A stretch of 64,000 bases of DNA from Flavobacterium aquatile LMG 4008 = ATCC 11947 (lineage in GTDB: Bacteria; Bacteroidota; Bacteroidia; Flavobacteriales; Flavobacteriaceae): positions 248,001-312,000 of the forward strand of contig NZ_JRHH01000001.1 in NCBI RefSeq assembly GCF_000757385.1. The letters run 5' to 3'. The notes beneath the pieces were generated by a model that had not been told where the DNA came from, made no database searches, and was given only the letters and a program-made list of their open reading frames with translations. Position 1 is the first letter of the stretch. Each line of letters starts with the position of its first letter. This document shows positions 7,854 to 21,015 of this stretch, piece by piece. A program made the translations under genes and the position numbers.

Positions 7854-7878
7854 GCTAAAGGAGAGTTTCTGCTTTAGC
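7854..7878 (-). terminator. Terminator-like hairpin in the metK leader
   Basis: On the minus strand GCTAAAG and CTTTAGC form a 7-bp stem followed by CTTTTTT. The 5' arm is the same GCTAAAG that ends the riboswitch aptamer, so the two structures should compete. Confidence 0.6.
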
Positions 7879-7918
7879 ATTTTTTTACGAGGTTGCAATC
7901 AGTTCAAATTTTTCCTCT
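7872..7918 (-). promoter_or_regulatory. SAM-II-type riboswitch upstream of metK
   Basis: Reading the minus strand, the stem AGAGG/CCTCG encloses AATTTGAACTGATTGCAA and is followed by an A-run and TGCTAAAG. The order ATTGCAA, second half-stem, A-rich linker and GCTAAAG matches the SAM-II (metA/SAM-alpha) pseudoknot known from alphaproteobacteria and Bacteroidota. It starts just after a good promoter and lies about 75 bases before the metK start. Assignment is from remembered consensus, not a covariance search. Confidence 0.78.
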
Positions 7919-7930
7919 TTATTTCGAGTG

Positions 7931-8084: not shown

Positions 8085-9005
8085 ATGAAAAAAACTTTAC
8101 TTTCTTTATTATTAATTCCATTTTTTGGAATAGCGCAAAATCAATTCTCTTTTGGATTTGATGGAACTACTGCGGCTATGATTTCAGCTGGATGGCAATC
8201 TACTAATCAAAGTTCACCTGTTGGTGCTTCTACATGGAATAATGCAACTTTCACAGTTCCTCTTGCAAATGCAATTTTCGGAAGTGGAAATACCACTACT
8301 GTTCCTATTGGGCAAGCTGGTGGAAATAATTCTTTTGCATTAGTCAACTTCAACAGTACAACTGGAGCAGGAACAATTAGCAATTGGTTAATTACGCCAA
8401 ATATTACTGTTGAAAATGGTGATATTGTTACTTTTTATTCTAGAAAAGGTACAGATGGAACTACTGATTATCCAGATCGTTTAGAGCTAAGAATGAGTAC
8501 AGCAGCTACAACTGTTTTGCCATCTGGAGCTTTAGATGTCGGAAGTTTTACAACTCTTGGGGTTAGTGTAAATCCAACTTTGGTAAATGGATTTGTATAT
8601 CCTAAAGTATGGACGCAATATACATATACTGTTGCTGGATTAACTGGGCCAACTCCAGTGAAATTTGCATTCAGATATTTTGTTACAAATGGTGGTCCAA
8701 GTGGTGCTAATTCTGACATTATTGGTATTGATACATTTTCTGTTGACAGAACTTTAAGCACAGATGATTTCTTTAAAAACAACTTTGCAGTTTATCCAAA
8801 TCCTGCTACTGATATAATTAATATTTCAAATGTTAACAGCCTTGAAATTTCTGCAGCTACAATTACAGATATCAACGGTAGAATTGTAAAAGAGTTTAGA
8901 TCTTCTATAGAATCTATAAATATTTCTGATTTAAATTCAGGAGTTTATTTCTTGAAAATTAGCACATTAGATGGTTCTGGAACTACTAAAATTGTTAAGA
9001 ATTAA
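8085..9005 (+). CDS. Secreted protein with choice-of-anchor-like domain and T9SS sorting signal
   Basis: The 306-residue protein has an 18-residue signal peptide (ends FGIAQ). A beta-rich domain with SNWLITPNITVENGDIV and a TYPDRLELR-like strand follows, typical of the choice-of-anchor J/cleaved-adhesin fold (about 20-225). The last 75 residues (FAVYPNPATDIINI, then DINGRIVKEF, then GVYFLKI) form a type A type IX secretion C-terminal signal. It should be exported across the outer membrane and attached to the surface or released. Ligand unknown. A strong terminator follows the gene. Confidence 0.88.
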   Translation: MKKTLLSLLLIPFFGIAQNQFSFGFDGTTAAMISAGWQSTNQSSPVGASTWNNATFTVPLANAIFGSGNTTTVPIGQAGGNNSFALVNFNSTTGAGTISNWLITPNITVENGDIVTFYSRKGTDGTTDYPDRLELRMSTAATTVLPSGALDVGSFTTLGVSVNPTLVNGFVYPKVWTQYTYTVAGLTGPTPVKFAFRYFVTNGGPSGANSDIIGIDTFSVDRTLSTDDFFKNNFAVYPNPATDIINISNVNSLEISAATITDINGRIVKEFRSSIESINISDLNSGVYFLKISTLDGSGTTKIVKN

Positions 9006-9024
9006 TCAACAGATAAGTCATTCT

Positions 9025-9051
9025 AAACCCACTTTTTAAGTGGGTTTTTTT
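9025..9051 (+). terminator. Terminator after the T9SS gene
   Basis: AAACCCACT and AGTGGGTTT form a 9-bp stem followed by a T-run. Confidence 0.85.
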
Positions 9052-9134
9052 ATTTACAAAAATGTTAAAATTTAAATTTTATTTTTTTTATTCAAAATAA
9101 CTTCAGAAGTTTGCTCCATCAAAAAAAAGAAAAA

Positions 9135-9203
9135 ATGAATTTAACAATGTGCAATATGTGTCGTATGATGTGGAAACTTCCGCAGAGCACTTCTATTGCA
9201 TAA
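9135..9203 (+). CDS. Methionine/cysteine leader peptide 1
   Basis: A 22-codon frame begins ATGAATTTAACAATGTGC. Five of its 22 residues are Met and two are Cys, concentrated in the first twelve codons (MNLTMCNMCRMMW). It has no homology-type features and sits between a terminator and an attenuator upstream of methionine genes. The role is inferred to be translation-coupled sensing of charged Met-tRNA (possibly also Cys-tRNA). Its 3' part (bases 9180-9187) repeats the 3' arm of the downstream terminator. Confidence 0.8.
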   Translation: MNLTMCNMCRMMWKLPQSTSIA

Positions 9204-9232
9204 TTTTAAATTTTTAAAATATATTCAAATGA

Positions 9233-9260
9233 AACCTCTGCAAACCGCAGAGGTTTTTTT
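9233..9260 (+). terminator. Attenuator 1
   Basis: AACCTCTGC (9233-9241) pairs with GCAGAGGTT (9247-9255) and is followed by T's. The left arm can pair instead with GCAGAG at 9182-9187 inside leader 1, giving the antiterminator. Confidence 0.82.
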
Positions 9261-9323
9261 ATTTAAACAAATTTGTCACACTGAGCGCTGTCGAAGTGCT
9301 TTTTTAAAAATAACAATTTCGAA

Positions 9324-9419
9324 ATGAACGTAATAGCAAAAAATATGATGATGTCTTGTATGATGATGCGCACAATGTGTTGTATCGACATCAGCTATTA
9401 CCATAAACGGAAAACATAA
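9324..9419 (+). CDS. Methionine/cysteine leader peptide 2
   Basis: A 31-codon frame contains eight Met and three Cys, including two ATG-ATG-ATG runs (residues 8-10 and 13-15) and MCC at 18-20. Such clustering has no plausible structural purpose and fits ribosome stalling when Met-tRNA is short. It follows attenuator 1 and precedes attenuator 2, so the two units are in series before metY. Tyr, His and Lys codons follow the control codons. No start signal other than the ATG at 9324 is evident. Confidence 0.8.
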   Translation: MNVIAKNMMMSCMMMRTMCCIDISYYHKRKT

Positions 9420-9443
9420 ATGAAATCTACATTTCTATTGTAA

Positions 9444-9480
9444 AAGTCCTTTTGGTAAGCCATCCAAAGGGACTTTTTTT
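9444..9480 (+). terminator. Attenuator 2
   Basis: A 12-bp stem (9444-9455 with 9464-9475, one G-T pair) and a run of T's lie 25 bases after leader peptide 2 and 49 bases before metY. I could not find a clear antiterminator partner for its left arm. Confidence 0.82.
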
Positions 9481-9492
9481 ATTTCAAAAATC

Positions 9493-9522
9493 TTAATACT
9501 TAATACTAATATCTTAATACTA
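9493..9522 (+). repeat. Heptamer tandem repeat (TTAATAC x4)
   Basis: Four near-identical heptamers lie directly before the metY start codon. Similar 7-bp tandems with other sequences occur before or beside several genes in this window. Confidence 0.65.
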
Positions 9523-9528
9523 AAAATC

Positions 9529-10821
9529 ATGAGCACACAAAAATTTTCAACCAACGCACTTCATGCAGGACACGATGTTACTAAAAACGCAGGAACTAGA
9601 GCTGTCCCAATTTACCAAACATCATCGTATGTTTTTAACAATTCAGATCACGCAGCCAATCTTTTTGGACTTGCCGAAGCCGGATTTATCTACACCAGAT
9701 TAAACAATCCAACCAACGACATTCTAGAACAACGTTTGGCAAAACTAGAAGGCGGAATTGGAGCTGTCGTTACAGCATCTGGAACTGCAGGAATTGCAAC
9801 AACATTTTTAACATTACTAAAAGCTGGCGATCACATCGTTGCATCCAACAGTTTGTATGGAGGAACTTACAATTTGCTAAAAGTAACTTTACCAAGATTG
9901 GGCATCACAACTACCTTCGTTGACCCATCAAATCCTGAAAATTTCACAAAAGCATCGCAACAAAATACAAGAGCCTATTTTGTAGAAAGTTTAGGAAATC
10001 CGAAACTTGATGTGTTGGATTTAGAAGCCATTTCTAAAGAAGCAAAAGCCTATAAAGTTCCGTTTATTGTGGACAATACCGTTGCAACTCCGTTTTTGTT
10101 AAACCCAATAAAATATGGAGCCGACATCGTAATTCACTCACTGACAAAATACATTACCGGAAACGGAACATCACTTGGTGGTGTAATTATCGATGCAGGA
10201 AACTTCGATTGGAGCAACGGTAAATTCCCTGAATTCACAGAACCATCAGCCGGATATCATGGCTTGAAGTACTACGAAGCACTTGGCGCAGCATCATTTA
10301 TTGCCAAAGTTCGAATTGAAGGATTGCGTGATTTTGGTGCAGCTTTAAGTCCCTTTAACGCTTTTCAAACCATTCAAGGATTGGAAACTTTAGAAATCAG
10401 AATCAAAAAGCATTCTGAAAATGCTCTTGCTTTAGCCAAATGGTTGCAATCTCAAGAAGAAGTAGCTTGGGTAAATTATCCAGGTTTAGAAACTTCAAAA
10501 TATAAAGAATTGGCCGATAAATATCTACCAGAAGGAAAAAGCGGCATCGTAACTTTCGGATTAAAAGGCGGATTTGAAGCAGCCAAAAAAGTTGCTGATG
10601 GAACCAGATTGTTCTCGCTTTTAGCCAACATCGGCGATACTAAATCATTAATAATACATCCGGCAAGCACAACGCACCAACAATTATCTGATGCGGAACA
10701 AGAAACCACAGGAGTCTCCAAAGATTTAATCCGTCTTTCTGTTGGTTTAGAAGATATCGATGACTTGAAAGCTGATTTAAAAGAAGTTTTTGAAACTATT
10801 AAAAATTCGCAAAAAGTCTAA
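9529..10821 (+). CDS. metY: O-acetylhomoserine sulfhydrylase (aminocarboxypropyltransferase)
   Basis: The enzyme makes homocysteine directly from O-acetylhomoserine and sulfide, using pyridoxal phosphate. The 430-residue product is of normal length for the family. It has the Cys/Met-metabolism PLP fold, with the Schiff-base lysine in SLTKY (Lys207), TRLNNPT near residue 56, and SGTAGIATT binding the cofactor phosphate (about 84). First gene of a cluster with osmC, metX and hom; spacing to the next gene is 2 bases. Expression is probably set by the two leader-peptide attenuators upstream. Confidence 0.94.
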   Translation: MSTQKFSTNALHAGHDVTKNAGTRAVPIYQTSSYVFNNSDHAANLFGLAEAGFIYTRLNNPTNDILEQRLAKLEGGIGAVVTASGTAGIATTFLTLLKAGDHIVASNSLYGGTYNLLKVTLPRLGITTTFVDPSNPENFTKASQQNTRAYFVESLGNPKLDVLDLEAISKEAKAYKVPFIVDNTVATPFLLNPIKYGADIVIHSLTKYITGNGTSLGGVIIDAGNFDWSNGKFPEFTEPSAGYHGLKYYEALGAASFIAKVRIEGLRDFGAALSPFNAFQTIQGLETLEIRIKKHSENALALAKWLQSQEEVAWVNYPGLETSKYKELADKYLPEGKSGIVTFGLKGGFEAAKKVADGTRLFSLLANIGDTKSLIIHPASTTHQQLSDAEQETTGVSKDLIRLSVGLEDIDDLKADLKEVFETIKNSQKV

Positions 10822-10823
10822 TC

Positions 10824-11282
10824 ATGAGTCAGAAAATTGTAAACGTAGTCGGATATGCAAAACAGCAAAATCAATTTGTAGTCAAAGCTCAAAACTTTGA
10901 TGTCCGAATTAGTAAAAACGATGATTTTCCAGAATTAGAAGGTCCAAGTCCATTAGAATATATTCTCGCCGGTTACGCTGGATGCATTAATGCTGTTGGA
11001 AAAATTGTTGCCAAAGAACACGGAATTATTTTAAAATCACTTCAAGTAGAATTATCTGCCAAATTAAGTCTAGACAAATATCAGGGAAAAATTAGCAATG
11101 AAAGAGCTGGCTTTAGTTCTATTGAAGTGATTGTTAAACCAACTTCTGACGCTAGCTTGGAACAACTAAAAGATTGGCTAATAGAAATTGAAAATCGATG
11201 TCCGGTTCAAGATAATTTGGTAAATCCAACGCCAGTTTCGGTAGTTTTATTTAAAGATTTACAAGCTGTGGAAGCGGCTTAA
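10824..11282 (+). CDS. OsmC family protein
   Basis: The 152-residue protein has the two conserved cysteines of the OsmC/Ohr fold: Cys54 in AGYAGCINAV and Cys126 in ENRCPVQDN. Family members reduce organic hydroperoxides as homodimers. It is translated 2 bases after metY, which suggests a link to sulfur metabolism, for example protecting thiols or handling reactive sulfur; this is inference. A hairpin terminator follows at about 11314-11350, so metX downstream may rely on readthrough or its own promoter. Confidence 0.88.
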   Translation: MSQKIVNVVGYAKQQNQFVVKAQNFDVRISKNDDFPELEGPSPLEYILAGYAGCINAVGKIVAKEHGIILKSLQVELSAKLSLDKYQGKISNERAGFSSIEVIVKPTSDASLEQLKDWLIEIENRCPVQDNLVNPTPVSVVLFKDLQAVEAA

Positions 11283-11418: not shown

Positions 11419-12414
11419 ATGTTACAAAAAATAGAAATTCTAAATTTCAAATTAGAAAATGGAAAAGTTTTAACCAAAACTCCATTGTTCTATCAAACTT
11501 TTGGTCAACCAATTGGAAATGCTCCTATCGTGATTGTCAATCATGCGTTAACCGGAAATTCATATGTTACTGGAGAAAACGGCTGGTGGAACGATTTAAT
11601 CGGAATTGATAAAATTATCGATACCAATAATTTTACGATAATCGCATTCGATATTCCAGGAAATGGTTTTGACGGAAATCCAGAAAATCTAATCACGAAT
11701 TACAAGGATTTTACTGCGAAAGACATTGCCAGTATTTTTTTAGAAGGAATTAATGTTCTTAAAATAGAATCTGTTTTTGCTTTAATTGGCGGAAGTTTAG
11801 GTGGCGGAATTGCTTGGGAAATGGCAAATTTGCAACCAGATAAATTTCAAAATCTAATCCCAATTGCAACCGATTGGAAAGCTTCCGATTGGGTAATTGC
11901 TAATGTTTTAGTGCAAGATCAAATTCTGAATAATTCGGATAATCCAATTGTCGATGCGCGACTTCATGCGATGCTTTTGTACAGAACGCCACAATCGTTC
12001 AAGAAAAAATTCAACAGAAATAAAAAAGCAGATTTAAATGATTTTCAAATAGAAAACTGGCTCGTGAATCACGGACTCAAATTACAGAACCGCTTCAAAT
12101 TAGCTGCATACAAACTCATGAATCATCTGCTAAAAACCATTGATATAACAAAAGAAACCAATGATTTTGCAGTTTCAGCTCGTAAAATCTCAGCCAACAT
12201 TCACATAGTTTCAGTCGATACCGATTACTTTTTTATTCCAGATGAAAATCGGGAAACCTTTGAAATTTTAGAACCAATAAAGCAAAATGTTTTCTATCAC
12301 GAAATAAAATCCATCCATGGTCACGATGCTTTCTTGATTGAATTTGACCAACTAGCACAAATTTTAGAACCTATTTTTAATAAACAAAAACATCAAAATT
12401 ATGTCAACGCTTAG
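11419..12414 (+). CDS. metX: Homoserine O-acetyltransferase-type alpha/beta hydrolase
   Basis: MetX acetylates homoserine with acetyl-CoA, providing the substrate for MetY. The 331-residue product has the family blocks NHALTG (about 41-46), the nucleophile elbow GGSLGGG with Ser126, a SVDTDYFF segment carrying the expected Asp, and GHDAFLIEF with the catalytic His. It is a little shorter than many MetX proteins (about 350-380). The end overlaps hom by 14 bases, so the two are translationally coupled. Acetyl rather than succinyl donor is inferred from the neighbouring MetY. Confidence 0.85.
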   Translation: MLQKIEILNFKLENGKVLTKTPLFYQTFGQPIGNAPIVIVNHALTGNSYVTGENGWWNDLIGIDKIIDTNNFTIIAFDIPGNGFDGNPENLITNYKDFTAKDIASIFLEGINVLKIESVFALIGGSLGGGIAWEMANLQPDKFQNLIPIATDWKASDWVIANVLVQDQILNNSDNPIVDARLHAMLLYRTPQSFKKKFNRNKKADLNDFQIENWLVNHGLKLQNRFKLAAYKLMNHLLKTIDITKETNDFAVSARKISANIHIVSVDTDYFFIPDENRETFEILEPIKQNVFYHEIKSIHGHDAFLIEFDQLAQILEPIFNKQKHQNYVNA

Positions 12415-13501
12415 AATAAATGTAATCCTTTTCGGAATCGGAAATGTGGGAAGCACTTTAATAAACCAAGTCATCGAAAGCCAGAAATTCTTCTTGGAAA
12501 AAAGAAATATCGATTTGAGATTTCCAATAATCACCAATTCAACACTAGCTTTTTTCGAAAAAGAAGGCGTTAAAAATCAATGGGAAGCCAATTTTGCACA
12601 ATCGGCAATTCCATTCAGAATCGAAGATATTATTGAATATGTAAAAGAACAACAATTCGAAAACCTAATCGCGGTCGATGCCACTGCAAGTTCCGAAATT
12701 GTAAACAGCTACATTCCATTAATCCAAAACGGATTTAATATTGTGACTGCCAATAAAAAAGCCAACACATTAGATTTAAATTTCTACAACGAATTAAGAG
12801 AGAATTTAAAAGTCTTCGATAAAACGTTTCTTTATGAAACAAATGTTGGAGCAGGATTGCCTGTAGTTCAAACCATCAACGATTTACACTTTTCAGGCGA
12901 AAAAATCACAAAAATTAGAGGTGTTTTCTCGGGTTCATTAAGTTATATTTTCAACAGATTTTCATCCGAAGAAACTACATTTTCCAAAATTCTAGCCGAT
13001 GCCGAAAAAAACGGATACACCGAACCTGACTCACGCGAAGACTTATCAGGAAACGATGTTGCCAGAAAATTATTAATTCTAGCAAGAGAAATCGAACAGA
13101 AATTTGAATTTTCCGACATCAAAATCGCATCACTTTTGCTACCAGAATTAAACGAACAACATTCCAAAGCACAATATGCAATCAACAAAACGCTATTCGA
13201 TAAACCGTTTAACATTGCCAAAATAACCCAAGCTCAAAATCACGTTTTACGATACGTTGGCGAACTTGATGTAATCACTCAAAAACTCGAAGTCAAACTC
13301 ATTTCTGTCCCAAAATCAACCGCATTAGGTCAGCTAAAAGGTGCCGATAACTTGATAGAAATCTACACAAAATCCTACGGCGAAATTCCAATTGTCATTC
13401 AAGGTGCAGGCGCAGGAAAAGAAGTAACAGCTCGCGGCGTATTGACCGATATTCTAAAAATAGCCGATAAAATAAAAATTCAAGAAGCTGTTTTTCAATA
13501 A
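12401..13501 (+). CDS. hom: Homoserine dehydrogenase
   Basis: The enzyme reduces aspartate semialdehyde to homoserine, feeding methionine and threonine synthesis. The N-terminus has the dinucleotide loop FGIGNVGS (about residues 11-18), then TANKKAN near 115. The catalytic-domain signature GSLSYIFNRFSS is followed by AEKNGYTEPDSREDLSGND (about 203-221). At 366 residues it lacks both an N-terminal aspartokinase and a C-terminal ACT domain, so direct allosteric feedback by threonine is unlikely. Overlaps metX by 14 bases. Confidence 0.92.
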   Translation: MSTLRINVILFGIGNVGSTLINQVIESQKFFLEKRNIDLRFPIITNSTLAFFEKEGVKNQWEANFAQSAIPFRIEDIIEYVKEQQFENLIAVDATASSEIVNSYIPLIQNGFNIVTANKKANTLDLNFYNELRENLKVFDKTFLYETNVGAGLPVVQTINDLHFSGEKITKIRGVFSGSLSYIFNRFSSEETTFSKILADAEKNGYTEPDSREDLSGNDVARKLLILAREIEQKFEFSDIKIASLLLPELNEQHSKAQYAINKTLFDKPFNIAKITQAQNHVLRYVGELDVITQKLEVKLISVPKSTALGQLKGADNLIEIYTKSYGEIPIVIQGAGAGKEVTARGVLTDILKIADKIKIQEAVFQ

Positions 13502-13600: not shown

Positions 13601-13622
13601 CACTGTTCATAAACTTATTGAC

Positions 13623-13726
13623 TGTTATCACGAAAGCTGGAGAGATTAGACTCGATGAAAGCTTAGCAACCCTACAACTGTAGAAGGTGCTACATTCTAT
13701 TCCGATTTATCGGAAACAGATAACCC
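13623..13726 (+). promoter_or_regulatory. SAM-I riboswitch (S-box)
   Basis: All core parts are visible. P1 is GTTATC (13624-13629) with GATAAC (13719-13724). The P2 region has GGAGAGATTAGACTC then GATGAAAGCTTAGCAACC. P3 is CTACA/TGTAG, followed by the conserved AAGGTGCTAC. P4 is CCGAT/ATCGG. No clear terminator follows, so control may be at translation or by another structure. The regulated genes are metH (two parts) and metF, although a repeat block lies between riboswitch and metH. Confidence 0.92.
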
Positions 13727-13805: not shown

Positions 13806-13907
13806 GAGCGAATGGCTTGCGCATTTTTGCAATCCATAATCCTGCTTTCCGCTATATTTTTTATTTTTTAAAGAAAAAAATAAAAAGATACCGCTGTAAT
13901 CAGGGCT
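13806..13907 (-). repeat. Dispersed intergenic element (AGCCCTGAT type), reverse copy
   Basis: Reverse-complement reading begins AGCCCTGATTACAGCGGTA, passes an A/T hairpin, then AGCGGAAAGCAGGAT, and ends at CCATTCGCTC. It lies between the SAM-I riboswitch and metH. With the neighbouring hairpin repeat and a stock phrase at 14001-14033 it fills most of this 530-base gap. Confidence 0.75.
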
Positions 13908-14033
13908 AAAAAGTAATTCATTTTTGTAAAAGTCTAGTTTCAAAAAGAAGTATTTCTTAAAAAAAAACTTAACTCACTTAATGGTTAAAAAAAATTAAAC
14001 TTAGTGACTTAGCGCCTTCGTGGCAAATAAATT

Positions 14034-15026
14034 ATGTCAAAAATAAACCAAGCAATAAAAGAAAGAATCCTAGTTCTAGACGGAGCAATGGGAACCATGC
14101 TGCAACGTAATAATTTCTCCGAAGAGGACTTCCGTGGTGAACGTTTCAAAGATTTCCCACATCCATTAAAAGGAAACAACGATCTACTTTCCATTACGCA
14201 ACCCCAAGCAGTAATGGAAGTACATCGTCTGTATTTTCAAGCTGGAGCAGATATTGTAGAAACCAACACATTCTCTGGAACAACCATCGGAATGGCAGAT
14301 TACCACATGGAAGATTTAGTTTATGAACTAAACTACGAATCCGCCAAAATAGCAAGACAAGTAGCCGACGAATTTACAGACAAACCACGTTTCGTAGCAG
14401 GTTCAATCGGACCAACCAACAGAACAGCATCAATGTCACCAGACGTAAACGATCCAGGTTATCGCGCCGTAACTTTTGACGATTTAAGAATCGCCTACAA
14501 ACAACAAGTTGAAGCGTTAATCGATGGCGGTTGCGACGTTTTATTAGTAGAAACAATATTCGATACTTTAAACGCAAAAGCTGCACTTTTCGCAATCGAA
14601 GAAGTAAAAGAAGAACGCAATCTAGACATTCCTGTAATGGTTTCAGGAACAATTACAGATGCTTCAGGAAGAACACTTTCTGGTCAAACGGTTGAAGCAT
14701 TTTTAATATCAATTCAGCATATCGATTTGTTAAGTATCGGTTTCAATTGTGCACTTGGCGCAGATCAGTTAAAACCGTATTTAAAAAGATTGGCACACAA
14801 CACACAACTAAATATTTCGGCACATCCAAATGCAGGTTTGCCAAATGCATTCGGACAATACGACCAAACACCAATCGAAATGCAAGCTTTAATTAAAGAA
14901 TATTTGCAAGATAATTTAATCAATATAATTGGCGGTTGTTGCGGCACAACACCAGAACACATTAAAGCAATTGCAGATATTGCATCACAATTCAAACCAA
15001 GAAAATCAGAATTAGTAACAAATTAA
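14034..15026 (+). CDS. metH: Methionine synthase, homocysteine-binding subunit
   Basis: This 330-residue protein equals the first module of cobalamin-dependent methionine synthase. It binds homocysteine through zinc, with ligands Cys239 (GFNCALG) and Cys302-Cys303 (GGCCGTTPEH). LDGAMGTMLQ near residue 15 is the family start motif. The remaining modules are encoded by the next gene, 75 bases downstream. Together they total about 1,219 residues, close to the single-chain enzyme. No frameshift signs are seen; a real stop and a new start separate them. Likely under the SAM-I riboswitch. Confidence 0.93.
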   Translation: MSKINQAIKERILVLDGAMGTMLQRNNFSEEDFRGERFKDFPHPLKGNNDLLSITQPQAVMEVHRLYFQAGADIVETNTFSGTTIGMADYHMEDLVYELNYESAKIARQVADEFTDKPRFVAGSIGPTNRTASMSPDVNDPGYRAVTFDDLRIAYKQQVEALIDGGCDVLLVETIFDTLNAKAALFAIEEVKEERNLDIPVMVSGTITDASGRTLSGQTVEAFLISIQHIDLLSIGFNCALGADQLKPYLKRLAHNTQLNISAHPNAGLPNAFGQYDQTPIEMQALIKEYLQDNLINIIGGCCGTTPEHIKAIADIASQFKPRKSELVTN

Positions 15027-15101: not shown

Positions 15102-17771
15102 ATGTCAAGAACAAACAAAATAAATTTACAACTTTCAGGTCTAGAACCGCTTTTCGTTACCGAAGAATCCATTTTCGTAAACGTCGGCGAACGCACCAAT
15201 GTAACAGGTTCGCGTAAATTTCTAAGATTAATAAAAGAAGAAAAATACAACGAAGCACTTTCTGTTGCAAGAGAACAAGTAGAAGGTGGCGCACAAATAA
15301 TAGACGTCAATATGGACGAAGGAATGCTCGATGGTGTTTATGCCATGACCAAATTCCTAAATCTAATTGCTGCCGAACCAGATATTGCCCGAGTTCCAGT
15401 TATGATTGATAGTTCCAAATGGGAAATCATAGAAGCCGGATTGAAAGTTGTACAAGGAAAAGCCGTTGTAAATTCCATTTCACTTAAAGAAGGTAAGGAT
15501 ACTTTCATGAATCACGCCAAATTAATTAAACGATATGGAGCAGCAGTAATCGTGATGGCATTCGACGAAGATGGTCAAGCCGATACTTATGAAAGACGTA
15601 TTGAAATCTGTAAAAGGAGTTATGATATTCTTGTTAATGAAGTAGGTTTTCCAGCGCAAGACATCATTTTTGATCCAAACATTTTTCCGGTTGCAACAGG
15701 AATGGACGAACATAAACTGAATGCCTTAGATTTTTTCAGAGCCACAAAATGGATACGTGAAAATCTTCCTTATGCCAATATTTCTGGTGGTGTAAGTAAC
15801 GTTTCGTTTTCGTTTCGAGGAAATGATACCGTTCGTGAAGCGATGCATTCGGCATTTTTGTATCACGCCATTCAAAACGGAATGACCATGGGAATTGTTA
15901 ATCCGGAAATGCTTGAGATTTACGATGAAATCGACAAAACACTTTTAGAACACGTTGAAGATGTTCTTTTAAATAGAAGAGAAGACGCAACCGAACGATT
16001 ATTAGATTTAGCAGAAACCTTCAAAGGTGATTATAAAGTAAATGAAAAAGCAATTGCCGAATGGAGAAATGGTTCGGTTCAAGAACGATTAACTCATTCG
16101 TTAGTAAAAGGAATCGACGAATTTATCGAAATTGATGTCGAAGAAGCACGATTACAATCTGAAAAAGCAATCGAAGTTATCGAAGTAAACTTAATGGCCG
16201 GAATGAATGTCGTTGGTGACTTATTCGGAAGTGGAAAAATGTTTTTACCACAAGTTGTAAAATCGGCTCGTGTAATGAAAAAAGCAGTTGCTTATTTATT
16301 GCCGTTTATCGAAGCACAGAAAGACGGAAAATCATCTTCGGCAGGAAAAGTATTGATGGCAACTGTAAAAGGTGACGTTCACGATATTGGAAAAAATATT
16401 GTAGCTGTAGTTTTAGGTTGCAATAATTTTGAAATTATTGATTTAGGAGTTATGGTTCCGCCAGAAAAAATTATTCAAACAGCAATTGAGCACAATGTAG
16501 ATATTATAGGATTGAGCGGATTGATTACGCCGTCACTCGACGAAATGGTTTATTTGGCAAAAGAATTAGATAAATTAAATATCAAAATTCCAATTATGAT
16601 TGGTGGAGCGACAACTTCTCGTGCGCACACAGCCGTGAAAATTGCACCAGAATATAAGCAAACCGTTGTTCACGTAAACGATGCTTCGCGTGCCGTAACG
16701 GTTGCTAGTAATTTATTGCAAGCCGAAACCAAAGAACGTTACGTGAAAGCAATTCGTGAAGAATACGACAAGTTACGTGATGGTTATTTGAATAGAAGTC
16801 GCGACAAAAATTTTCATTCGATTGAAGATGCCCGCAAAAATAAACTAAAATTAGATTGGGATAATTTCACACCAATAACACCAAATTTTATCGGAACAAA
16901 AACCATTGAAGTGGAACTTTCTGAATTGGTTGATTTTATAGATTGGACGCCATTTTTTAATTCATGGGAATTGTACGGAAAATATCCTGCGATTTTAACG
17001 GATGAAATTGTTGGAGAACAGGCCACCAATTTATTTGCCGACGCGCAAGAAATGTTACAACAGATCGTTTCAGAAAAATGGTTGACTGCAAAAGGAATTC
17101 TAGGAATCTTTCAAGCAAATACAATTAATGATGATGATATTGAAGTTCAGGCTCAATTCACAACCAAATTTCTAACGCTACGCCAACAATCACAGAAAAC
17201 CGCCGGCGCACCAAATATTGCTTTAGCCGATTTTATTGCTCCAAAAGATTCAGGAAAACAAGATTACATAGGATGTTTTTGTGTAACAACTGGTTTTGGA
17301 GTAGATGAAAAAGCTGCTGAATTCGAAAAACAATTAGACGATTACAATTCGATTTTAGTAAAAGCACTCGGCGATCGATTTGCGGAAGCATTTGCCGAAT
17401 ATTTACACTTAAAAGTTCGTAAAGAAATTTGGGGTTACGCATCGGATGAAAATTTATCCAATCAAGATTTAATTTCTGAAGAATATGCTGGAATTCGTCC
17501 AGCACCAGGTTATCCAGCTTGTCCAGACCATTTAGAGAAACCAACAATTTGGAAGTTGCTAAATGTGGAAAAAGAAATAGGAGTAACGCTTACCGAAAGT
17601 ATGGCAATGTGGCCAGCAAGTTCCGTTTCTGGATATTATTTTGCCAATCCGCAAAGCAAGTATTTCGGACTCGGAAAAATAAAAGAAGATCAAATAATCG
17701 ATTATGCCAAACGTAGAGGAATTTCTACCGAAATGGCAACCAAATGGCTTTCGCCGAATATAGCAGATTAA
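15102..17771 (+). CDS. metH: Methionine synthase, folate/cobalamin/activation subunit
   Basis: The 889-residue product has the pterin-binding barrel ([14 protein letters not shown] near residue 27), a helical cap, the cobalamin domain with GDVHDIGKN (cobalt-ligand His427) and GLSGLITPS, and a C-terminal SAM-binding activation domain with [12 protein letters not shown] (799-810). It transfers the methyl group from methyltetrahydrofolate through cobalamin to homocysteine held by the upstream subunit. The organism therefore needs cobalamin for this route. The 3' end is followed by metF. Confidence 0.95.
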
Positions 17772-18799: not shown

Positions 18800-18829
18800 T
18801 TCTGATTTTATAAAATACAATTACAACCT

Positions 18830-18933
18830 AGCCCTGATAGTAATGAAAATAAAAGACCTCCATTGTTTGGAGGTTTTTTATTGTAATGGATAGCAGGAAA
18901 ATGGAAACCAAAAACACCCAAACCATTCGCTCC
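18830..18933 (+). repeat. Dispersed intergenic element (AGCCCTGAT type), forward copy
   Basis: It begins AGCCCTGATAGTAATG, has a 15-bp hairpin (18848-18862 with 18868-18882, one G-T pair) able to act as terminator for metF, and ends CCATTCGCTCC like the copy at 1025. Confidence 0.75.
18848..18882. terminator. Terminator hairpin within the repeat after metF
   Basis: A GACCTCC/GGAGGTT core is extended by A/T pairs to 15 bp, with T's on the 3' side. Confidence 0.75.
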
Positions 18934-20847: not shown

Positions 20848-20988
20848 AAGCTAATCCAGCTATACGTTGCAAGTTGGCTTGTAAAATTATATTTTTCTAA
20901 GAGCTAAAATGCGCTTCCTTTGGTCGCAATTTTACCTCAAGAAAAATTATAATTTTCCTTCACCAAGCTTTCCACTGCTATCTGGGCT
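20847..20988 (+). repeat. Dispersed intergenic element, second subfamily, copy B
   Basis: It starts GAAGCTAATCCAGCTATACG, has GCGCTTCCTTTGGTCGC in the centre, and ends GCTATCTGGGCT. It matches the copy at 6330-6472 at both ends and in the centre and lies between two convergent genes. Confidence 0.7.
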
Positions 20989-21015
20989 AAATCTCGCATT
21001 TCGTAAATTGTACTT

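Follow-up and report, generated by a model that had tools for sequence, protein, structure and literature searches.

The metY locus of Flavobacterium aquatile

The window (the whole stretch of DNA that was analysed) comprises 64,000 nucleotides of F. aquatile LMG 4008, contig NZ_JRHH01000001.1, and coordinates are given from its first nucleotide. The genes and known sensors around metY are as follows:

7864-7923, minus strand: SAM-II riboswitch preceding metK on that strand (Rfam match)
8085-9005: gene for a T9SS sorting domain protein, the upstream neighbour of the leader region
9529-10821, plus strand: metY, O-acetylhomoserine aminocarboxypropyltransferase/cysteine synthase (TIGR01326, 634.9 bits, cut-off 495.1)
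10824-11282, plus strand: OsmC-like gene (best NCBIfam match, below the curated cut-off)
11419-12414, plus strand: MetX-like gene (best NCBIfam match, below the curated cut-off)
12401-13501, plus strand: homoserine dehydrogenase-like gene (best NCBIfam match, below the curated cut-off)
13622-13726, plus strand: SAM-I riboswitch preceding metH (Rfam match)

The metY leader (9000-9528) had no Rfam match, including to the SAM riboswitch families (RF00162, RF01726) and the T-box. The following features were identified in it, all on the plus strand:

9110-9114: TTTGC of a Bacteroidota-type promoter-like site (motif enrichment)
9135-9203: leader ORF 1, Met/Cys-rich, 22 codons, MNLTMCNMCRMMWKLPQSTSIA, with 5 Met and 2 Cys (family alignment A1)
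9180-9187: antiterminator segment 1, CCGCAGAG, within the end of ORF 1, pairing with 9235-9241
9231-9257: intrinsic terminator 1, 11 pairs, -16.0 kcal/mol, then a T run (covariation)
9279-9298: repeat-like stretch of the inter-unit spacer, probably without a function here; a similar stretch occurs in some other spacers
9324-9419: leader ORF 2, Met/Cys-rich, 31 codons, MNVIAKNMMMSCMMMRTMCCIDISYYHKRKT, with 8 Met and 3 Cys (family alignment A2)
9398-9410: antiterminator segment 2, TTACCATAAACGG, imperfect in the window, pairing with the 5' arm of terminator 2
9442-9477: intrinsic terminator 2, 14 pairs, -18.2 kcal/mol, then a T run (covariation)

Leader frames, terminators and promoter

A preliminary description, made from the sequence of the window alone, had proposed two Met/Cys-rich leader peptides with attenuators in series ahead of metY. 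Its codon, Met and Cys counts were reproduced for both frames, and the strong intrinsic terminator that it placed behind each frame and ahead of metY was found in both cases as a predicted hairpin with a T run. Among the 439 ATG-initiated ORFs of 15-45 amino acids on both strands of the window, leaders 1 and 2 were the only ones with at least 7 Met+Cys residues making up at least 30% of the peptide. When positions 9006-9528 were dinucleotide-shuffled 2000 times, one such ORF was obtained in a single shuffle and two in none. Profiles of the leader families matched the 3.49 Mb genome at these two sites and at one further site with an E-value of 2.49; by profile, from which leaders of other sequence would escape, the same leaders were not found before other genes of the genome.

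Four terminator-like sites (one on the other strand) were detected between 8500 and 10000, versus 0.6 +/- 0.8 in shuffled sequences, and both leader regions folded better than 200 of 200 shuffles (z = -5.66 and -4.77). The two hairpins also covaried among relatives. With kinship ignored, terminator 1 had 27 doubly changed cells versus 7.9 in shuffles in the diverse unit-1 set, and terminator 2 had 17 versus 4.3 in 23 of the 35 diverse unit-2 sequences.

The promoter-like site upstream of leader 1 resembles TAnnTTTG, which we take to be the Bacteroidota-type promoter motif. Of 73 loci with two units, 70 have TTTG[CT] in the 60 nt preceding leader 1 (27.7 in shuffles). Between terminator 1 and leader 2 it was not enriched (7/73 versus 10.9 in shuffles), and a general promoter between the units was therefore rejected. 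The spacer between the units measures 5 to 715 nt, and a similar promoter-like motif was seen in that of at least one two-unit locus; in the L043 clade, the motif precedes leader 2 and leader 1 was not detected. A single transcript likely runs through both units, except where a promoter-like motif precedes leader 2.

Conservation of the leader units in Flavobacterium

A unit was defined as a Met/Cys-rich ATG ORF with a terminator no more than 80 nt behind it, and units of type 1 and type 2 were told apart by author-made terminator sequence patterns. The genus set (n=141) consisted of 80 named metY loci (the best 80 matches listed), 60 regions from 58 more divergent genomes among those with a metY match, and the window; these sets overlap in species. 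Two loci on MAG contigs with unlikely labels (L010, Bifidobacterium; L012, Nitrotoga) were kept, their metY being 92% identical to that of the window.

Among the matches listed, both units were present in 74 of the 141 metY upstream regions, with unit 1 first every time. By the unit rule and among the same matches, unit 2 was found alone in 45, unit 1 alone in 15 and neither in 7. Some loci are undercounted: low-Met versions of the leaders in L138 and L159 fell under the threshold of the rule. The best 80 named loci had both units in 48 cases, unit 2 alone in 24 and unit 1 alone in 8, and none lacked both. Two-unit species include the non-pathogenic F. lacus (L018) and F. buctense (L013). The leaders are short ORFs with a run of codons for the product amino acid, conserved as codons among relatives. 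Loss of the frames with retention of the hairpins, which would have spoken against the preliminary description, was looked for and the opposite was seen (48 two-unit and 32 one-unit loci among the best 80). The tandem arrangement that it had proposed is common (74/141) but not obligatory, as 60 of the 141 regions among the matches listed have one unit.

Antiterminator pairing

Leader 1 has a recurrent layout: a Met/Cys run (typically CNMCCMMW) is followed by CCGCAGAG or an equivalent, whose complement lies in the 5' arm of terminator 1. Among 70 distinct leader-1 ORFs, i.e. those whose segment fitted our patterns, the segment was read in the three frames 35, 30 and 5 times, as PQR, SAE or SCG and variants thereof. 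Because it occurs in three frames, the segment is kept as RNA, and the preceding Met/Cys run as codons; the Met+Cys share by frame is biased, because the ORFs had been picked for a high share. The segment also tracks the terminator arm: for example, CCTCTGC occurs with GCAGAG, CCTCCCAC with GTGGG and AAGCCCTTGC with GCAGGGCTT.

Duplex energies were computed for 76 distinct leader/arm pairs of unit 1, and the mean was -12.4 kcal/mol for the own duplex, -11.4 for permuted partners and -7.4 for shuffled leaders. For unit 2 (106 distinct pairs), the corresponding values were -12.2, -11.1 and -10.1 kcal/mol. In both units, the own value was matched by none of 2000 permutations, with kinship ignored.

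Covariation of the unit-1 pairing was assessed in 21 of 23 diverse sequences (L145 and L149, which have long N-terminal extensions, were omitted). Antiterminator 1 was paired in 85.0% of cells, versus at most 53.2% for slid partners. It had 13 doubly changed cells versus 3.8 in shuffles, and neither this number nor the covariation score was reached in 500 shuffles (kinship ignored). Two further measures were weaker: the number of doubly changed pairs (4) was reached by 33/500 shuffles and that of further pair types by 222/500. The last Met/Cys codon starts 13-14 nt ahead of the segment in 64 of 71 ORFs. On the assumption that the ribosome front lies about 12 nt beyond the first base of the A-site codon, a ribosome that stalls on this last codon would end just short of the segment.

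For unit 2, the set comprised 23 of 35 diverse sequences, and 12 divergent or unlike rows were omitted (L033, L038, L060, L127, L135, L137, L144, L150, L152, L157, L170 and L171), so that the counts for antiterminator 2 and terminator 2 speak for the more similar sequences. In these 23 sequences, antiterminator 2 was paired in 89.3% of cells, versus at most 60.8% for slid partners. It showed little covariation: the single doubly changed cell was reached by 161/500 shuffles and the covariation score by 6/500 (kinship ignored for both). In 69 of 87 cases, the distance from the last Met codon to the segment is 21-27 nt, a looser spacing than in leader 1. The evidence is far stronger for unit 1 than for unit 2.

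This imbalance bears on the unlikely alternative that each genome has a single attenuating unit beside a copy that is redundant or in decay, with no serial logic. Such a copy would fit the little covariation of antiterminator 2, the single-unit loci (45/141 with unit 2 alone and 15/141 with unit 1 alone, among the matches listed) and the degraded-looking leader 1 of F. psychrophilum (L060). However, both units stand together and in order in 74 of the 141 Flavobacterium loci among the matches listed, six of the 74 loci from other genera have two units as well, and the terminators of both units covary, all of which argues against this alternative. F. psychrophilum still has terminator 1, whereas its leader 1 is poorer in Met codons and reaches the terminator without a stop codon.

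Folding with a stalled ribosome

At equilibrium, the complete leader folded in favour of the terminator every time (at least 0.92), so any switch must be kinetic. As this fold is uninformative, transcripts ending at the terminator loop were folded instead, with the ribosome footprint blocked. The probability that the 5' arm of the terminator was held upstream was as follows:

Unit 1 (n=93): 0.71 with a stall on Met/Cys codons, 0.32 at the stop codon, 0.55 with no ribosome
Unit 2 (n=115): 0.65 with a stall on Met/Cys codons, 0.32 at the stop codon, 0.67 with no ribosome

Sequestration of the arm was higher with a Met/Cys stall than at the stop codon in 93/93 type-1 and 105/115 type-2 units, and higher than with no ribosome in 70/93 and only 34/115, respectively. 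Against the model, other codons of unit 2 gave 0.62, hardly below its Met/Cys codons (0.65). For a third of the units, three footprints were combined with three temperatures, and the stall exceeded the stop codon in 23-26 of 26 type-1 and 34-36 of 38 type-2 units.

In the window, unit 1 gave 0.80 on Met/Cys codons, 0.14 on residues 14-17 and 0.46-0.60 beyond; the value was still 0.49 at the stop codon and fell to 0.15 without a ribosome. For unit 2 of the window, the values were 0.31-0.59 up to residue 22 and at most 0.25 for residues 23-31; a ribosome at the stop codon gave 0.19 and a free transcript 0.31. Transcripts free of ribosomes are relevant here, as Met starvation should lower initiation at the leaders as well. 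In the model, reduced initiation would let many type-2 units read through, and would not do so for unit 1 of the window.

Exchange with the SAM-I riboswitch

Other genera of the Flavobacteriaceae were surveyed at 74 metY loci, covering 74 of the 135 genera with a match. A SAM-I aptamer lay upstream on the metY strand, with no Met-leader unit, in 58 loci; Met-leader units without SAM-I were found in 10 and neither sensor in 6. SAM-I and Met-leader units occurred together in none of the 74. Two leader units were present in L189, L190, L198, L208, L220 and L246, and one in L197, L232, L235 and L237. In Flavobacterium, a SAM aptamer preceded metY on its strand in 0 of 20 scanned loci, and no Rfam family was detected in the metY leaders of these 20 relatives. 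As the leader device sits where most sampled genera have SAM-I, metY would sense tRNA charging there and not SAM. The exchange takes place at a single gene and so illustrates sensor replacement cleanly.

Two other accounts are far less probable. Copper-sensing leader ORFs exist, and the order-tolerant Met/Cys-rich peptides would suit the binding of a soft metal such as copper(I), so that the leader would sense metal and not starvation; yet the controlled genes make homocysteine, the leaders replace SAM-I at the same gene, and the fixed spacing between codons and antiterminator in leader 1 is what ribosome stalling needs, which leaves a metal sensor highly improbable. Just as improbable is an undescribed riboswitch or T-box-like element with incidental frames, which the high structure of the leaders would accommodate, but not the Met/Cys run held in one frame beside an antiterminator segment found in three, nor the lack of an Rfam match in 9000-9528 and in the metY leaders of the 20 scanned relatives.

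Outside the family, all 26 genomes of the class with a match were taken and 20 were scanned with Rfam. Two Met/Cys leaders with a terminator behind each were found in L252, and two leaders with a terminator detected for the first only in L250; neither locus had a SAM-I match. SAM-I was found in 14 of the 20 scanned metY loci, and each of these 14 has an ATG that starts from 1 nt ahead of the aptamer's 3' end to 15 nt behind it. For 11 of them (L249, L253, L255, L256, L257, L258, L259, L262, L269, L270 and L274), that ORF (35-47 amino acids) ends in a run of Cys codons, with only three Cys in L255. Such a Cys-tailed ORF behind the aptamer is possibly a SAM-gated cysteine leader; it was seen in 0 of the 74 sampled Flavobacteriaceae metY loci.

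The likely signals

The preliminary description had named methionine as the signal. Cysteine should join methionine as a likely signal. Both leaders carry Met and Cys codons. In the F. aquatile genome, CysE had no match at E <= 1e-38 (a threshold chosen because 0 of 199 Flavobacterium genomes reach the cut-off of the model) and CysK none over the curated cut-off. Cysteine may therefore also depend on MetY, which would fit the mixed codons.

A general rule, by which leaders carry Cys codons where CysE is absent, was not supported. It was assessed in 80 of 87 genomes, the other seven being dropped because they had no leader or fewer than four Met+Cys codons. CysE was present in 10 of 10 genomes with almost no leader Cys codons versus 46 of the 70 others (Fisher p 0.03), and these ten look like one clade, in which both leaders lose Cys together. 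Opposite to expectation, the leader Cys share was higher with CysE (median 0.49 versus 0.39, p 0.03).

Proposed mechanism

Leader-peptide attenuation, as first suggested from the window, is supported by an antiterminator pairing in each leader, by the fixed codon spacing of leader 1 and by SAM-I at the same place in relatives. The elements of an attenuator were found in both units: leader codons, an intrinsic terminator, an antiterminator exclusive with it (covariation being weak in unit 2) and control codons placed such that a stalled ribosome would free the antiterminator (more loosely in unit 2). The ORFs, terminators, alternative pairings, conservation, leader-1 spacing, promoter-like site and SAM-I exclusion were all derived from the sequence. 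They point to two ribosome-mediated attenuators in series that would read the charging of Met- and Cys-tRNA and replace a SAM riboswitch (probability about 0.82).

What we infer from these features is leader translation, ribosome stalling, early termination, the nature of the signals and the product rule, as follows. The metY transcript would start just upstream of leader 1 and carry both attenuators. With charged Met- and Cys-tRNA at hand, the ribosome would finish ORF 1 and cover the antiterminator, allowing terminator 1 to form and end transcription. Under a shortage of either charged tRNA, the ribosome would instead stall on the Met/Cys codons with its front just short of segment 1, leaving this segment free to base-pair with the 5' terminator arm, and RNA polymerase would continue. 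Leader 2 and terminator 2 would repeat the decision ahead of metY. Because the decision would be made twice, metY expression would approximate the product of two read-through probabilities, and the doubling would be expected to give a steeper response.

A broader reading, which we hold at somewhat short of even odds, is that this might be a serial attenuator for one signal, nearly switch-like, and that among Bacteroidia ribosome-read metY leaders might either have replaced SAM-I, in some lineages, or, in other families, lie directly behind a SAM-I aptamer as a short ORF with a terminal Cys run, with SAM and Cys-tRNA sensed on one transcript.

Comparison with known systems

The classical leader-peptide attenuators are those of the trp, his, leu, thr and phe operons. 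The metY leaders are like them in having a short ORF with many codons for the product amino acid, an antiterminator at its end, an intrinsic terminator and biosynthetic genes behind; they are unlike them in using Met plus Cys codons and two complete units serially. Control of methionine genes is usually described via SAM riboswitches, T-boxes or repressors. The host phylum has, to our knowledge, no usual Shine-Dalgarno sites, and the metY leaders are a test of whether transcription-translation coupling in Bacteroidota is tight enough for attenuation. Leaders read by methionine pose a puzzle, because Met starvation should hamper their own initiation. As one- and two-unit species occur within one genus, the gain from a second identical attenuator would be directly measurable. 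In the open-access literature searched (most subscription papers being outside its scope), neither a described Met leader-peptide attenuator nor a described one-signal tandem amino-acid attenuator was found.

The closest arrangements known to us are as follows. According to the excerpt of PMC3641672, tandem attenuators before Salmonella mgtCBR respond to ATP and proline with additive effect. As at metY, two short ORFs lie in one leader, one of them reading the tRNA charging of an amino acid; in mgtCBR the signals differ and that excerpt mentions no intrinsic terminators, whereas both metY units use the same kind of codon and an intrinsic terminator. The same excerpt describes Bacillus clausii metE, a methionine gene that also has two sensors; there they are tandem SAM and coenzyme B12 riboswitches with two intrinsic terminators in series, and at metY they would be leader peptides. 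For uORFC-8-2, which precedes cysS in Rhodobacterales, the part of PMC8632094 consulted gives conserved Cys codons, an intrinsic terminator and predicted ribosome-mediated attenuation; as described there, it differs from the metY leaders in having two Cys codons only, a single unit and no Met, before another gene and in another phylum. For F. psychrophilum, of the same genus, the main text of PMC9723704, in which the word methionine is absent, reports strong indications that leader peptides attenuate amino-acid operons; its supplement may list metY.

Additional observations

With SAM-II before metK, SAM-I before metH and the putative metY attenuators, the 10 kb region around metY would have sensors of three kinds for methionine metabolism. 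In the same region, metH is split into two adjacent ORFs, 14034-15026 and 15102-17771, corresponding to the homocysteine-binding part and the remainder, respectively. Four Flavo-1 RNA motifs (RF01705), a family of unassigned function, lie at 1021-1103, 13834-13911, 18826-18904 and 20849-20992.

Further small ORFs were seen in some relatives. In the clade of L043, L040, L059 and L118, terminator 2 is followed, ahead of metY, by an extra ORF of about 50-65 codons. In L065, L149 and relatives without unit 2, a small Cys/Arg-rich ORF lies ahead of metY (MKMYLPRRCCRMCCLG in L149), with no terminator detected behind it. Finally, metY is present twice in two genomes, G029 (L117/L144) and G111 (L142/L150); the copies lie about 3-5 kb from each other, and each is preceded by Met/Cys leaders and terminators of its own.
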